In this document: piece by piece, positions 1 to 41,914 of the stretch
How the letters are laid out: every line of letters starts with the position of its first letter
Position numbering within the stretch: the stretch's first letter is position 1
Program-made: the position numbers and the translations under genes
Origin: Candidatus Nomurabacteria bacterium
GTDB lineage: Bacteria; Patescibacteriota; Saccharimonadia; Saccharimonadales; Saccharimonadaceae
Length of the DNA: 43,163 nucleotides
NCBI GenBank assembly: GCA_031262695.1
Contig: JAISHF010000005.1
Span: 1-43,163 of the forward strand
Direction: 5' to 3'
Notes under the pieces: model-generated
The model's input: only the letters and a program-made list of their open reading frames with translations
What the model was told of the DNA's origin: nothing
Database searches by the model: none

Positions 1-119
1 AACCAACTGAACCAACTGAACCAACTGAACCAACTGAACCAACTGAACCAACTGAACCAACTGAACCAACTGAACCAACTGAACCAACTGAACCAACTGA
101 ACCAACTGAACCAACTGAG
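1..119 (+). repeat. 9-bp tandem repeat encoding Pro-Thr-Glu
   Basis: The unit ACCAACTGA is repeated without variation for 13 in-frame copies and is cut by the window edge. Every unit is identical at the DNA level, so the tract is probably young and prone to length change by slippage, which would alter stalk length without breaking the frame. Confidence 0.97.
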
Positions 120-15740: not shown

Positions 15741-15750
15741 GCACAATTTG

Positions 15751-15780
15751 CCCCCATGACCACGATTGTGATTATGGGGG
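15751..15780 (-). terminator. Shared C5/G5 hairpin downstream of module 1 gene 1
   Basis: CCCCCAT..ATGGGGG stem around a GATT-containing loop, followed on the minus strand by CAAATT. Nearly the same hairpin occurs at 16689-16718 and 27467-27495. It separates the 15790-15999 gene from the next promoter. Confidence 0.7.
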
Positions 15781-15789
15781 GCGGGGAGG

Positions 15790-15999
15790 CTATTCTTCGT
15801 CGTTGGAGCTTATCTGTTTAGAAATGCTCAGAAAGAGACGCAAGAGGTGTGCGGCCGCGCAGACGTAATCCATAACAATACAGGCAATCAGTATGTTGTC
15901 GCCTGTATAGTCATATTTTTCCCACTGGTAGCACGAGAGCAAGAACCAAACCACGGCCAAGAAAAAGCAGTCAAAGTTATTTTGAAAATCTTTTTTCAT
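15790..15999 (-). CDS. Small membrane protein, module 1 gene 1
   Basis: 69 residues: a basic start MKKDFQNNF, one TM helix (CFFLAVVWFLLSCY), a short acidic loop (EKYDYTGDN), a second hydrophobic stretch (ILIACIVMDYVCAAAHLLRLFL) and an acidic tail SNDEE. No family recognised. I chose the ATG at 15999 because AGGAGG stands 6 nt upstream. It is transcribed from the promoter/leader repeat copy at 16089-16128 and ends at the shared hairpin. Its position corresponds to the Spo0A-C gene in module 2, but the proteins are unrelated. Confidence 0.65.
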   Translation of the reverse strand: MKKDFQNNFDCFFLAVVWFLLSCYQWEKYDYTGDNILIACIVMDYVCAAAHLLRLFLSISKQISSNDEE

Positions 16000-16128
16000 A
16001 AGGGGCCTCCTAATATTCACGCCCGTAGATACCTCAAAGAGGTGCTGGGGGGGGGCTTAATTGGTGCCCCACACCAGCTTATACTTACATTATATCATAC
16101 TTGTGCTTAAAAGTCAATAGTTTCGGTG
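16000..16128 (-). promoter_or_regulatory. Promoter/leader repeat, copy A
   Basis: Minus-strand TTGACT (16117-16112), 17 nt, TATAAT (16094-16089), then a leader of about 80 nt with a stem built on GCTGG..CCAGC, a C9 tract (G9 on plus, 16047-16055), a second hairpin ACCTC-TTT-GAGGT, and AGGAGG. CACCGAA lies just upstream of the -35 (16128-16122). Confidence 0.85.
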
Positions 16129-16201
16129 GTTTTTCTGCTGAGTACAAGTATTTAAGGGCGAAAGTCTGCAAAATATATTTATAATATGATAAAATATTTC
16201 A

Positions 16202-16591
16202 ATGAAACTAGCAAAGCAAGGCAAGATCACGCCAAACGGCGTAGTACTTGAAACGCACGAGAATTCCACCGTTGTATTCCTAACCGAGCGTGGTTTTGAT
16301 GTAGAGCTAATCAAGCCTGTTCGCACAAAAGGTGCCAAGAACGCCGACATTATCCTTGCGGGCATCGTCTGGGAAATCAAAGGTCTGTTCGGTAGTAGCA
16401 AGCGTTCCATTGCCGATCATCTCTATAAAGCCTCTCGCCAATCACCAAACATAATCTTAGACATGCGTCACTTTGGTCTGTCAAAAAGTTTCTCAATAAA
16501 AGAAATTTCCAAACAATTCAACATCCGCCGCAAGATTAAACGAATAAAAGCAATCTTTCAAGACGGCGAAACTATTGACTTTATGCGTTAG
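16202..16591 (+). CDS. Stand-alone CdiA-C-like (BECR-fold) nuclease, module 1
   Basis: 129 residues with no signal or membrane segment. The core ADIILAGIVWEIKGLFGSSKRSIADHL..KASRQSPNIILD follows the pattern of CdiA C-terminal tRNase toxin domains also found at the ends of phage head proteins (acidic residue, then WEIK, then a Lys and a QS-N-hydrophobic-D strand). Likely catalytic candidates are Asp49, Glu58 and Lys60. No immunity gene is evident. TAAAAT stands 6 nt before ATG (leaderless). Codon use is less GCG/GGC-biased than neighbours, consistent with transfer. It is a diverged paralogue of 40766-41152. Target and role (toxin, defence, effector) are unknown. Confidence 0.7.
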   Translation: MKLAKQGKITPNGVVLETHENSTVVFLTERGFDVELIKPVRTKGAKNADIILAGIVWEIKGLFGSSKRSIADHLYKASRQSPNIILDMRHFGLSKSFSIKEISKQFNIRRKIKRIKAIFQDGETIDFMR

Positions 16592-16603
16592 CTTTGCTAT
16601 AAT
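16575..16603 (+). promoter_or_regulatory. Consensus promoter overlapping the nuclease 1 stop codon
   Basis: TTGACT, a 17-nt spacer and TATAAT, with TTGACT inside the last codons. The preceding CGAAACTATTGACTTT matches the promoter repeat family. It fires into the hairpin at 16613-16651. Confidence 0.75.
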
Positions 16604-16612
16604 AGTGTTAAC

Positions 16613-16651
16613 GAGATCGTCGCTTGCCGCGAAGCGGCAAGCCGCGGTCTC
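16613..16651 (+). terminator. Long hairpin after nuclease 1 (terminator or hairpin RNA)
   Basis: An 18-bp stem with one mismatch and two G-U pairs, loop GAA, followed by TTTT. Since the promoter start point falls around 16610, the product would be little more than this hairpin (about 45 nt). Confidence 0.75.
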
Positions 16652-16688
16652 TTTTGAGGTTAAATCGAGTATTTTGCCAAACAATTTG

Positions 16689-16741
16689 CCCCCGTAACTA
16701 CGATTGTGATTACGGGGGTGCTGGTTAGGCTGCAAGACCTA
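16689..16741 (-). terminator. Shared hairpin pair in module 1
   Basis: CCCCCGTAA/TTACGGGGG (16689-16718) next to TAGGC-TGCAAG-ACCTA (16726-16741). The same two hairpins in the same order occur after the 27049-27432 gene. Confidence 0.65.
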
Positions 16742-16787
16742 AAAAGGTGCGGAAATTAACTATGAAGCACTAGAAGAACACAAGACG

Positions 16788-16819
16788 AAATGCCTCAGCG
16801 GTTAAGCCGAGGCATTTTT
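16788..16819. terminator. Hairpin terminator between nuclease 1 and module 1 gene 2
   Basis: AAATGCCTC..GAGGCATTTTT stem with T5 on the plus strand and a shorter T run on minus, between convergent genes. Confidence 0.75.
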
Positions 16820-16823
16820 GAGA

Positions 16824-17303
16824 TTAGGTGTCGCTATATTGGAGGAATTGTTTTGTGAGGGCAAGGACTTCGTCGGGGAAGGACTTGCAGTCGTCGGGCG
16901 AGGCGGTTGGTTTGACGAAGGCGTCTTTCTTGTTCGTTGAGAAAACGCAGAGTTGGTTTATCTGAATTATTACGACTAAAAAATACATGACTGCGACAGT
17001 AAGGTCGTGCTCATAGACGGCTTTCAAGGCGCCGAAAAGGAAAGCAGTGGCAGTTATGGTAATTAGAACGGCCAGAGTGATGACAAGAGCTTTATTTAGC
17101 TTTTTCCCCTCCGCGCGCTCCCAGCAGAGCGCCTCGCATTCTTCTTGAAGCTTGACACTTGGGAATGCTTGTATAAAGTTGAAGGCATTGAAGATTGCGG
17201 TGTTTGTGGCGTTGGAGCCGTATTTTCTAAGAAGTTCCGCATAAACGGTGGTGTTAAGCTCGAAGTCTATATCAGTTTGTTTGCCGTTTATTGTAAGGGT
17301 CAT
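16824..17303 (-). CDS. Membrane protein with soluble N-domain, module 1 gene 2
   Basis: 159 residues. The N-terminal part (LTINGKQTDIDFELNTTVYAELLRKYG) looks like a small beta/alpha domain of the kind seen in phage tail-assembly chaperones, but the match is weak. Two TM helices follow (ALVITLAVLITITATAFLFGAL and LTVAVMYFLVVIIQINQLCVF), then a cytoplasmic tail. I chose the ATG at 17303 because AGGTG lies 6 nt upstream. Expressed from promoter/leader copy B. In module 2 the corresponding slot holds another small membrane protein. It could be the protective partner of the nuclease, which is speculation from position only. Confidence 0.6.
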   Translation of the reverse strand: MTLTINGKQTDIDFELNTTVYAELLRKYGSNATNTAIFNAFNFIQAFPSVKLQEECEALCWERAEGKKLNKALVITLAVLITITATAFLFGALKAVYEHDLTVAVMYFLVVIIQINQLCVFSTNKKDAFVKPTASPDDCKSFPDEVLALTKQFLQYSDT

Positions 17304-17439
17304 AGTATTCACCTATCTTTCAAAATTCACGCCCACTAGATACCTCAAAGAGGTGCTGGGGGGGGGCTTATTAGTTGCCCCACACCAGCTTATACTTACA
17401 TTATATCATACCATAAGCAAAAAGTCAATAGTTTTGGCA
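17304..17439 (-). promoter_or_regulatory. Promoter/leader repeat, copy B
   Basis: TTGACT (17428-17423), 17 nt, TATAAT (17405-17400), the conserved leader with GCTGG/CCAGC stem, C9 tract (17366-17358) and ACCTC-TTT-GAGGT hairpin, then AGGTG. TGCCAAA stands at 17439-17433, 4 nt upstream of the -35. Confidence 0.88.
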
Positions 17440-27443: not shown

Positions 27444-27495
27444 TAGGCCTTGCGGCCTAGCTAAGCCCCCCATAATCGCAATAGTGGTTATGGGG
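27444..27495 (+). terminator. Shared hairpin pair downstream of 27049-27432
   Basis: TAGGCC..GGCCTA (27444-27459) and CCCCATAA..TTATGGGG (27467-27495), the same two stems as at 16689-16741. The following CAAATT leads directly into the ABC-transporter promoter. Confidence 0.7.
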
Positions 27496-27519
27496 GCAAA
27501 TTCGTGGTATAATTATAGT

Positions 27520-40113: not shown

Positions 40114-40563
40114 TTAGGCGGATTTTGTCGCGGGCTGGATATATTTATGCTCCATCTGGATTTTATCGGCAATTGTGGCAATAAACTCGCTGTTGGTCGG
40201 TTTGTCCTTCTCAAATGAGATGGTGTAGCCGAAGACATCTTCCCAGAATGCGTGGCTGCCGCGTACATAGGACACCTCTACGGCGTGGCGAATGGCGCGC
40301 TCAACACGGCTCCCCGTGGTCTTGAACTCATTCGCGATGGTGGGATAAAGTTTTTTCGTGATTGAGTCCAATATCTCGTCGTCTTCAACGGCAAGAACGA
40401 TAGCTCGGCGAGCATAGCGGTAACCCTTAATGTGTGCAGGAATGCCGAGTTCACGGAAAATTTCGCCTACGCGGAGTTCAGTTGTCGGGTCGGGGTTCAC
40501 GGATTCAACAGTGAAGTTTGTAGTAGCGACCGCTGTAATGGTTTCAGTAGTTTTCTCAGACAT
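40114..40563 (-). CDS. Stand-alone Spo0A C-terminal DNA-binding domain protein
   Basis: 149 residues. Residues 32-140 align end to end with the Spo0A effector domain: ELGIPAHIKGYRYARRAI, DSITKKLYPTIANEF, the recognition-helix block TTGSRVERAIRHAVEV, then FGYTISF and KPTNSEFIATIADKIQMEHK. By eye roughly half the positions are identical to Bacillus subtilis Spo0A. The receiver domain is replaced by a 30-residue Thr-rich tail, so control by phosphorylation in cis is impossible. AGGAGG stands 8 nt before ATG. It is transcribed from promoter/leader copy C, which has a Spo0A-box-like TGCCGAA. No sporulation genes are in the window. Transfer from a Firmicute is plausible. Confidence 0.93.
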   Translation of the reverse strand: MSEKTTETITAVATTNFTVESVNPDPTTELRVGEIFRELGIPAHIKGYRYARRAIVLAVEDDEILDSITKKLYPTIANEFKTTGSRVERAIRHAVEVSYVRGSHAFWEDVFGYTISFEKDKPTNSEFIATIADKIQMEHKYIQPATKSA

Positions 40564-40711
40564 AAGTGGTTCCTCCTAAAAAATTTACGCACCCTGTTTA
40601 CCAAGTTCCCGATGCACAAGCAAAGGGGCTGGGGGGGGGTGATTATTTGCCCACACCCAGCTTATACTTCCATTATATCACACTTATGCCTAAAAGTCAA
40701 TAGTTTCGGCA
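40564..40711 (-). promoter_or_regulatory. Promoter/leader repeat, copy C
   Basis: TGCCGAA (40711-40705), TTGACT (40700-40695), 17-nt spacer, TATAAT (40677-40672), then a leader with CTGGGTGTGGG / C9-CCAG stem (C9 at 40639-40631). The ACCTC/GAGGT hairpin is missing. Ends in AGGAGG. Confidence 0.88.
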
Positions 40712-40765: not shown

Positions 40766-41152
40766 ATGGATAAGATTCGCATTCCAGATGGCTACAAGCC
40801 AGAGTTGCATGAAATTGAAGTGGCGAAAATATTGGTGGGGCGTTTTGATTGTGAGATTGAGTTTTTGCGGCCATCTAATTCTTATAAAGTTTCTACGCCT
40901 GACATTGAGATGAGAGGTCAGCTTTGGGAGATTAAAAGCCCGCTTGGTTGCGCTAAGCATACTATTCAAGAGCAATTTAAGCGTTCGTCTAAACAGTCTT
41001 GCAATATTATTATAGATGGCCAGCGAAGCAAGCGGTCAGATGAGGATCTCGTAAAAGATATACAAAAAGAGATAAAATTGCATAAAACAAAACGCAGGGT
41101 GCTGTTTATTACGAAAGATAAAAAAGTGCTTGACATGGGTAAACGAGGTTGA
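40766..41152 (+). CDS. Stand-alone CdiA-C-like (BECR-fold) nuclease, module 2
   Basis: 128 residues from the ATG at 40766 (a longer frame would start inside the promoter). The core TPDIEMRGQLWEIKSPLGCAKHTIQEQFKRSSKQSCNIIID fits the CdiA C-terminal RNase pattern better than the module 1 copy. Candidate catalytic residues are Asp46, Glu55, Lys57 and Lys64. The C-terminal KRRVLFITKDKKVLDM strand closes the fold. No secretion signal or fused delivery domain. The two copies share D-I-x5-WEIK and the QS-N-I-I-x-D strand but differ elsewhere, so they are old paralogues or separate acquisitions. A consensus promoter overlaps its last codons. Confidence 0.72.
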   Translation: MDKIRIPDGYKPELHEIEVAKILVGRFDCEIEFLRPSNSYKVSTPDIEMRGQLWEIKSPLGCAKHTIQEQFKRSSKQSCNIIIDGQRSKRSDEDLVKDIQKEIKLHKTKRRVLFITKDKKVLDMGKRG

Positions 41153-41158
41153 TATAAT
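41130..41158 (+). promoter_or_regulatory. Consensus promoter overlapping the nuclease 2 stop codon
   Basis: TTGACA, exactly 17 nt, TATAAT: both boxes are perfect. TTGACA is read as codons of the nuclease. Confidence 0.85.
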
Positions 41159-41164
41159 ACAGAT

Positions 41165-41248
41165 GTAGAAAGACCAGGCAGCCCTGATTGGGCAGTCGGA
41201 GGAGTATTCTACAAAATAATACAAAAGCCTCCGTTTTGGAGGTTTTTT
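41165..41248 (+). ncRNA. Candidate small structured RNA downstream of nuclease 2
   Basis: About 84 nt from the predicted start to a terminator (CCTCC-GTTTT-GGAGG then T6, 41228-41248). TGTAGAA (41164-41170) pairs with TTCTACA (41207-41213) to close a domain that contains GAC..GTC and GCCC-TGATT-GGGC. No ORF. Not recognised as SRP, 6S, tmRNA or RNase P. Confidence 0.65.
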
Positions 41249-41277
41249 GGTTTGCATGGCAGAAATGCAAGCGCGAA

Positions 41278-41327: not shown

Positions 41328-41771
41328 TTAAACCTCATAAGAAAGTATTTTTGAGTGCTTGATTTGGCCAGCTTTATTGTAGTAGACTCTCACGATAATG
41401 TTCAGGCTCTCACCTTCAGATGATTTAGTATAGAGTTCAGCGTTATCTATCCAGTAGATTGCACCATCATCTTTGGCTTCAACTTGAACGTTGTGTTGCG
41501 ACGGATGAATTATCGGCAAAAGGGTAGTCACGTTACCGATGCGTGTGGGCATTAAGGTTGTGTAGCTAGGCCGATAGCTTTTGCTGCGGATGTATGCTTG
41601 TTTTTTGACGTCTTTGTGCCGGTAGGCAAGCGCGCGGTACAATGCTTGGATTGGCATAGCGAGCAGAATGCCGACGAGTATCAGCAACAAGACGATACAG
41701 GCGAGTGTGATAACGCCAACGACACCCGCAAGGATACCGCTGTGAAAGAACATCTCGAAGAACCATGACAT
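41328..41771 (-). CDS. Membrane-anchored protein, module 2 gene 2
   Basis: 147 residues. One or two N-terminal TM segments (FFHSGILAGVVGVITLACIVLLLILVGILLAM) are followed by a basic linker (YRHKDVKKQAYIRSKSY) and a small beta-rich soluble domain (VQVEAKDDGAIYWIDNAELYT..LNIIVRVYYNKAGQIKHSKILSY). No family recognised. AAAGGAGG is 8 nt before ATG. Expressed from promoter/leader copy D. It sits in the same slot as 16824-17303 of module 1, but the two proteins show no clear similarity. Confidence 0.62.
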   Translation of the reverse strand: MSWFFEMFFHSGILAGVVGVITLACIVLLLILVGILLAMPIQALYRALAYRHKDVKKQAYIRSKSYRPSYTTLMPTRIGNVTTLLPIIHPSQHNVQVEAKDDGAIYWIDNAELYTKSSEGESLNIIVRVYYNKAGQIKHSKILSYEV

Positions 41772-41914
41772 AGTGAAATCCTCCTTTTATAAAAAGTGCA
41801 CGCCCACTTGCATAATTACCTCGTAGAGGTGCTGGGGGGGGGTGATTATTTGTCCACACCCAGCTTATATTTCCATTATATCACACTCGTGCTTAAAAGT
41901 CAATAGTTTTGGCA
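41772..41914 (-). promoter_or_regulatory. Promoter/leader repeat, copy D
   Basis: TGCCAAA (41914-41908), TTGACT (41903-41898), 17-nt spacer, TATAAT (41880-41875), a leader with GCTGGG/CCCAGC stem, C9 tract (41842-41834), ACCTC-TAC-GAGGT hairpin, GTGGGCGTG box shared with copies A and B, and AAAGGAGG. Confidence 0.88.

Follow-up and report, generated by a model that had tools for sequence, protein, structure and literature searches.

The analysed window, a stretch of 43,163 nucleotides from Candidatus Nomurabacteria bacterium, holds two modules, each made up of a PD-(D/E)XK nuclease gene and an RNA gene 3' of it. The nuclease stop codon is embedded in a sigma-70-type promoter sequence, from which a separate hairpin RNA of ~40–55 nt (roughly 45 typical) would be transcribed. 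The same arrangement is seen at most nuclease loci drawn from related genomes, and the RNAs have conserved structures. Taken together, these features make it probable, in our judgement, that each module is a two-gene nuclease–RNA system akin to type III toxin–antitoxin (TA) systems, in which the RNA would neutralise a tRNase-like toxin.

Layout of the two modules

The window is contig C2 of a genome of 652,476 bases in five contigs. Module 1 spans positions 16202–16655 and module 2 spans 40766–41249. All the elements that the initial annotation had described at the two loci (genes, repeats, promoters over the nuclease stops, and hairpins) are present where it placed them:

16202–16591, + strand: module 1 nuclease, 129 aa, PD-(D/E)XK, Pfam CdiA_C (PF18451, E 5.8e-10); has the family invariants D, E-x-K and Q
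16575–16603, + strand: RNA 1 promoter (sequence); TTGACT at 16575–16580 in the last nuclease codons, 17-nt spacer, TATAAT at 16598–16603 after the TAG stop (16589–16591)
16613–16655, + strand: predicted small RNA 1; hairpin 16613–16651 plus U-run, −30 kcal/mol, z −5.4
40766–41152, + strand: module 2 nuclease, 128 aa, PD-(D/E)XK, Pfam CdiA_C (PF18451, E 6.7e-10); AlphaFold2 pLDDT 93; Foldseek match 4g6v, E 2.7e-5, TM 0.69
41130–41158, + strand: RNA 2 promoter (sequence); TTGACA at 41130, 17 nt, TATAAT at 41153 directly after the TGA stop (41150–41152)
41164–41213, + strand: predicted small RNA 2, structured hairpin of family B, z −3.0; 17 family members aligned, both-side changes in 12 of 14 pairs
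41225–41249, + strand: separate intrinsic terminator 3' of RNA 2 (fold and sequence)
16020–16124, − strand: promoter/leader repeat copy A1, outside the nuclease–RNA unit
17330–17437, − strand: promoter/leader repeat copy A2, outside the nuclease–RNA unit
40595–40707, − strand: promoter/leader repeat copy B1, outside the nuclease–RNA unit
41800–41911, − strand: promoter/leader repeat copy B2, outside the nuclease–RNA unit
15790–16002, − strand: slot 1 gene of locus 1, 70-aa membrane protein, neighbour only
16824–17312, − strand: slot 2 gene of locus 1, 162-aa membrane protein, neighbour only
40114–40563, − strand: slot 1 gene of locus 2, Spo0A_C domain protein (PF08769, E 4e-39), neighbour only
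41328–41771, − strand: slot 2 gene of locus 2, 147-aa membrane protein, neighbour only

The layout of the RNA 1 promoter is also found at homologous nuclease stops, and small RNA 1 is of the same type as the RNA of locus L079 in genome G023. At the contig end (window positions 1–109) lies a tandem 9-base repeat, AACCAACTG.

Family and predicted fold of the nuclease

The two window nucleases score 39.7 and 39.5 bits against PF18451, compared to a curated cut-off of 26.6. Residues D46, E55, K57 and Q77, the catalytic residues of PD-(D/E)XK enzymes, are invariant in 49 diverse members of the family. The AlphaFold2 model of the module 2 nuclease (mean pLDDT 93) has a sole significant Foldseek match, 4g6v, and ToxN is absent from the significant matches. 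Profile comparison also found 4g6v (E 1.6e-6), which is 18% identical to the nuclease. This structure is CdiA-CT of Burkholderia pseudomallei 1026b, a PD-(D/E)XK tRNase that cuts tRNA-Ala in the acceptor stem (PMC9086364). The nuclease is a small cytosolic PD-(D/E)XK enzyme with the CdiA_C tRNase fold; going by this fold relative, it may act as a tRNase, with a tRNA as its target.

The likeness to CdiA-CT II of B. pseudomallei 1026b in complex with CdiI (PDB 4g6v) lies in the nuclease fold and the Pfam family. There, the domain sits at the tip of a large, secreted protein and has a protein immunity partner, whereas here it is a free-standing protein of 128 aa with an RNA partner. No CdiA carrier, CdiB or CdiI accompanies the nucleases, which stand free at 128–129 aa among unrelated neighbours, and hence the modules do not qualify as contact-dependent inhibition (CdiBAI) loci. 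Searches with PADLOC and NCBIfam gave nothing convincing that would mark the nuclease as a known defence protein or NCBI protein family. A PHROGs search returned a C-terminal match within a head-maturation-protease family.

A promoter and a hairpin at the nuclease stop codon

The 652 kb genome encodes 12 CdiA_C (PF18451) proteins. At all 12 genes, the last codons contain a −35 box, the −10 box is found at the stop or immediately beyond it, and a short hairpin comes next. We then compared 176 nuclease loci, drawn from related genomes and including those of the window's own genome, with control sites. A promoter with at least 9 of 12 matches is present at the nuclease stop in 154 of the 176 loci, compared to 47 of 331 control ORF ends. 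Under a strict test requiring both promoter and hairpin, the figures are 149/176 for the nuclease loci versus 32/257 for control gene ends. Loci of the same family newly drawn by a later search show the same arrangement. Relative to the stop, the starts of the −35 elements group at −14, −11 and −20, positions that share one codon phase. The −35 is spelled out by the codons of a conserved [VIL][DE] motif in the nuclease protein. The −10 that comes after the nuclease stop is non-coding yet conserved. Most hairpins begin 8–9 nt after the −10, and hence the predicted transcript would contain hardly anything besides hairpin and U-run.

When the remaining loci were read by eye, about three nucleases were without a visible RNA (L113, L148 and L208). 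L148 is close to a contig end, and L208, which has no adjacent RNA, has one of its relatives' type 1.1 kb downstream (L208/L237). At about a dozen loci the RNA gene runs opposite to the nuclease gene and has a promoter of its own, and some of these RNA families are shared with forward loci. Loss of the −35 motif from the nuclease end at such reversed loci is weak (TTGA in 129/153 forward versus 9/13 reversed loci, P = 0.24; −35 quality, P = 0.011).

Because several nucleases are found near tRNAs, we considered tRNA genes as the target of the promoter. This idea was rejected, as ARAGORN places tRNAs at a minority of loci and their position is not fixed. Among the neighbours examined, no recurrent protein immunity gene was seen beside the nucleases.

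Families and structure of the hairpin RNAs

The RNAs fall into several families, which differ between nuclease clades. In family D1 (22 sequences), changes on both sides of the stem are seen in 12 of 15 pairs, with 38 double-change cells versus a shuffled mean of 15 (0/500). Family A (23 sequences) gives a similar picture: 12 of 13 pairs, and 39 double-change cells versus a shuffled mean of 11 (0/500). Slid controls for these two families yielded at most 16 double-change cells. In family B (17 sequences), which includes the RNA of module 2, both-side changes were found in 12 of 14 pairs. Compensatory changes are present in the inner stem too. G-U pairs are frequent, as expected for hairpins of RNA rather than DNA. 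Within families the cores are conserved and variation is confined to the paired stems, leaving no variable stretch that resembles a guide. A search of Rfam 15 with 20 loci, at E values up to 1, returned only tRNAs and chance-level matches, and hence no known RNA family.

Similarity between nucleases correlates with similarity between their RNAs (rho 0.31, permutation maximum 0.08), and a correlation persists among pairs less than 40% identical (0.19). One caveat is that simple linkage would give a correlation as well. While most loci have a single RNA unit, tandem pairs occur at L037 (G000 C1:18365), L098, L218, L273 and L274; in these, the cores are identical or nearly so and the outer stems are different but paired.

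An apical loop of the form [CT]G[GTA]A[ATG] is seen in 53 of 148 RNAs, compared to 26 of 740 shuffled sequences. We mention, only as a lead, that such loops could serve as tRNA-mimic decoys. The distant CdiA_C genes of L283 and L285, which come from another family of the same phylum, abut at their ends a promoter-like site in convergent orientation, together with a hairpin-like stretch of greater length; GGG.AGACCC is common to the two stretches. These may perhaps represent an ancestral form of the RNA partner.

Persistence of the RNA without the nuclease

A covariance model of family D1 (R1) detected 84 RNAs in 63 of 394 genomes. Among 70 R1 loci examined, the nuclease was intact at 29, truncated or frameshifted at 15 and absent at 26, with at least five of the non-intact cases being cut by contig ends; 11 further matches, at loci already known to be intact, lie outside the 70. 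For family A (model R2), nucleases were intact at 20 loci, broken at 6 and absent at 4. At L209, a deletion has removed the catalytic lysine and the C-terminal half of the nuclease, but its last codons have been spared, as have the promoter and RNA; the nuclease of L253 has an in-frame deletion. Intact nucleases are rarely found without an RNA. Such a pattern would be expected if cells that still have the nuclease are harmed by losing the RNA, and it favours an RNA antitoxin, as support rather than proof. Part of the asymmetry may reflect slow decay, since orphan RNAs score slightly below those beside intact nucleases (median 54 versus 59 bits among scores above 40, P = 0.015) and since the RNA presents a 45-nt target, compared to a gene of 390 nt (about nine times larger).

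These data bear on a different role for the RNA, namely that of a cofactor, activator or guide required for cutting, as in RNA-guided or RNA-activated defence enzymes. The tight one-to-one association and the clade-specific RNA families are compatible with such dependence, as is the multicopy, patchy presence typical of defence genes. However, there is no guide-like stretch in the RNAs, only their paired stems vary, and RNAs without a nuclease are far commoner than nucleases without an RNA. We regard an RNA-dependent nuclease as unlikely.

It is also conceivable that the hairpin is a cis-acting or 3'-UTR element, serving as terminator or stability element, and that the promoter is incidental to conserved C-terminal codons. 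The −35 is indeed encoded by a conserved protein motif, and the outer stem and U-run of the hairpin resemble an intrinsic terminator. But conserved codons do not account for a conserved −10 beyond the stop, and a 3'-UTR element would hardly be found reversed with a promoter of its own, alone without the nuclease, or with compensatory changes in its inner stem. This explanation seems to us quite improbable.

Distribution of the nuclease

Of 394 genomes from the same family, 176 have CdiA_C genes, with a patchy and often multicopy distribution. Beyond this family, two others of the order yielded one genome each with such genes (L046 and L048, which also have an RNA), and the genes are hardly present in the rest of the phylum. 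Copies within one genome are highly diverged, arguing against recent transposition. The two flanking genes of module 1 adjoin directly in G003 and G004, about 130 and 56 bp apart, and the whole 15.75–17.5 kb block is missing; this block has thus been gained here or lost there.

Such absence between the same flanking genes, together with the many scattered copies, could point to a mobile or homing element, whose nuclease aids its own spread and whose hairpin labels either the element itself or the site it targets, in the manner of REP hairpins and their transposases. Against this, the hairpin is one-sided and has its own promoter, no common target or end sequence was seen, the copies within a genome are too diverged to have transposed recently, and the nearest solved relative is a tRNase. 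We give this possibility very little weight.

Carriage of the system by viruses or plasmids was rejected. No relative of the nuclease was found on a plasmid or viral contig, and the only phage matches are proteins of the structural module in two Streptococcus phages, which have a similar domain at the C-terminal end. In one of them (L326, Streptococcus phage Javan85, 424–1857), the protein is encoded between the portal and capsid genes, and its C-terminal domain is ~30% identical to the nuclease. The domain is placed as if it were delivered with the virion.

Leader repeats and neighbouring genes

The initial annotation saw the two loci as twin copies of a defined, possibly undescribed accessory system, in which exchangeable cargo genes in two slots flank the nuclease behind promoter/leader repeats. 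The layout is indeed repeated at both loci. The four repeats, each of ~100 nt, are 74–92% identical, and the promoter core has five matches in the window versus none expected by shuffling. In the genome, however, the core occurs ~40 times and the leader about seven times, and a leader on both sides of the nuclease is a feature of the two window loci alone (2/12), not a general rule. A third nuclease locus (C4:80859) has the promoter core alone on both sides, and the ~100-nt leader is absent beside nucleases elsewhere. No homologue of the slot proteins was found beside any nuclease in ~290 related loci, and the two slot 2 proteins are unrelated to each other. The sole outside match of the slot proteins is a Spo0A_C paralogue at C1:71.4 kb, which has the same leader, is followed by a sigma-factor-like gene and has no nuclease near it. 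A sigma-factor-like gene and a gene for a coiled-coil protein have the leader in front of them as well. Because the slot genes with leaders are found at only 2 of 12 nuclease loci and are absent beside the others, and because the leader precedes unrelated regulators, we place both outside the system.

An accessory system of nuclease and leader-driven slot genes is thus the least probable of the readings considered here: although the layout recurs at two loci and promoter cores flank a third nuclease, 9 of the 12 nuclease loci do not have it, homologues of the slot genes are missing from other nuclease loci, and the leader occurs without a nuclease. What stands of the original proposal is a recurrent, apparently undescribed pairing of nuclease and hairpin RNA, which holds together in relatives; the flanking genes and repeats occur independently of it, and the exchangeable slots fall away.

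The leader has features of its own. Further copies are found in G000 at C1:4255, C1:70828 and C1:71399. It contains a run of 8–9 C and a GCUGG...CCAGC hairpin. The genes 3' of it encode small membrane proteins, two proteins with Spo0A_C, a sigma-factor-like protein and a coiled-coil protein. The leader may be a cis-regulatory RNA common to the members of one regulon; five copies folded together showed no covariation. A hairpin repeat of the GCCCCCATGACCACGATTGTGATTATGGGGG type lies close to the 3' sides of the two locus 1 slot genes (15743–15780 and 16681–16718) and once elsewhere in the window (27459–27496). Together with the leader, it gives the locus 1 slot genes a cassette-like look.

DISCUSSION

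A role for the hairpin RNA as neutraliser of the nuclease is plausible, given the sequence and structural patterns described above. In the type III-like mechanism that we favour, the short RNA would be produced from its own strong promoter and kept in excess, and would bind and block the cognate nuclease. Phage takeover, stress or loss of the locus are examples of events that might lower the RNA supply; the nuclease would then be freed to cut tRNA or other nucleic acid, with toxic effect. Many diverged nuclease–RNA pairs reside in one tiny genome, and each probably has its own specificity.

The type III TA systems ToxIN, CptIN and TenpIN similarly combine a protein nuclease toxin with a cognate structured RNA of ~35–50 nt encoded next to it; here the RNA gene is recognized by conserved structure and association, and its transcription is predicted. 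RNA units are sometimes in tandem (here at few loci, most being single), and the RNA is probably in excess of the protein. The protein here has the PD-(D/E)XK CdiA_C fold, compared to ToxN there, and the RNA is downstream or convergent with its own promoter, whereas in type III systems it precedes the toxin gene in a shared operon, a leaky terminator lying between the two. The RNAs described here match no Rfam family.

The nearest precedent in logic is AbiF/RCd22 (abiF RNA motif, RF03085), in which a conserved small RNA lies beside a protein gene whose product, in AbiF, is toxic. This system is type III-like, and direct neutralisation of the protein by the RNA was later shown (PMC12373285). 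The AbiF protein, however, belongs to the Abi_2 family, its RNA lies upstream, and the RNA motif is another one. A further RNA antitoxin outside the ToxN family is that of avcID, which acts on a deaminase toxin (PMC10511110); this toxin, a deoxycytidylate deaminase, is unrelated to the nuclease. Our literature searches, which most subscription journals were beyond the reach of, found no description of the pairing reported here.

A broader proposal, which we put forward tentatively and hold to be possible rather than likely, is that these loci represent a new class of RNA–protein conflict system in ultrasmall bacteria. CdiA_C nucleases would be run by RNA genes with stop-codon promoters, and orphan RNAs would provide immunity against other copies or incoming nucleases, much like orphan immunity genes; or else the nucleases would be RNA-activated.

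The layout is extremely compact, the final codons of one gene doubling as promoter sequence for another. If our interpretation is right, the short list of protein toxins held by RNA antitoxins would grow by a toxin of unrelated fold, with several new families of RNA alongside. The short, covarying RNA–protein pairs would also be available for pairwise comparison of specificity. Finally, control by RNA would explain the unusual expansion of these nucleases in strongly reduced genomes, where it reaches 12 copies in 652 kb.
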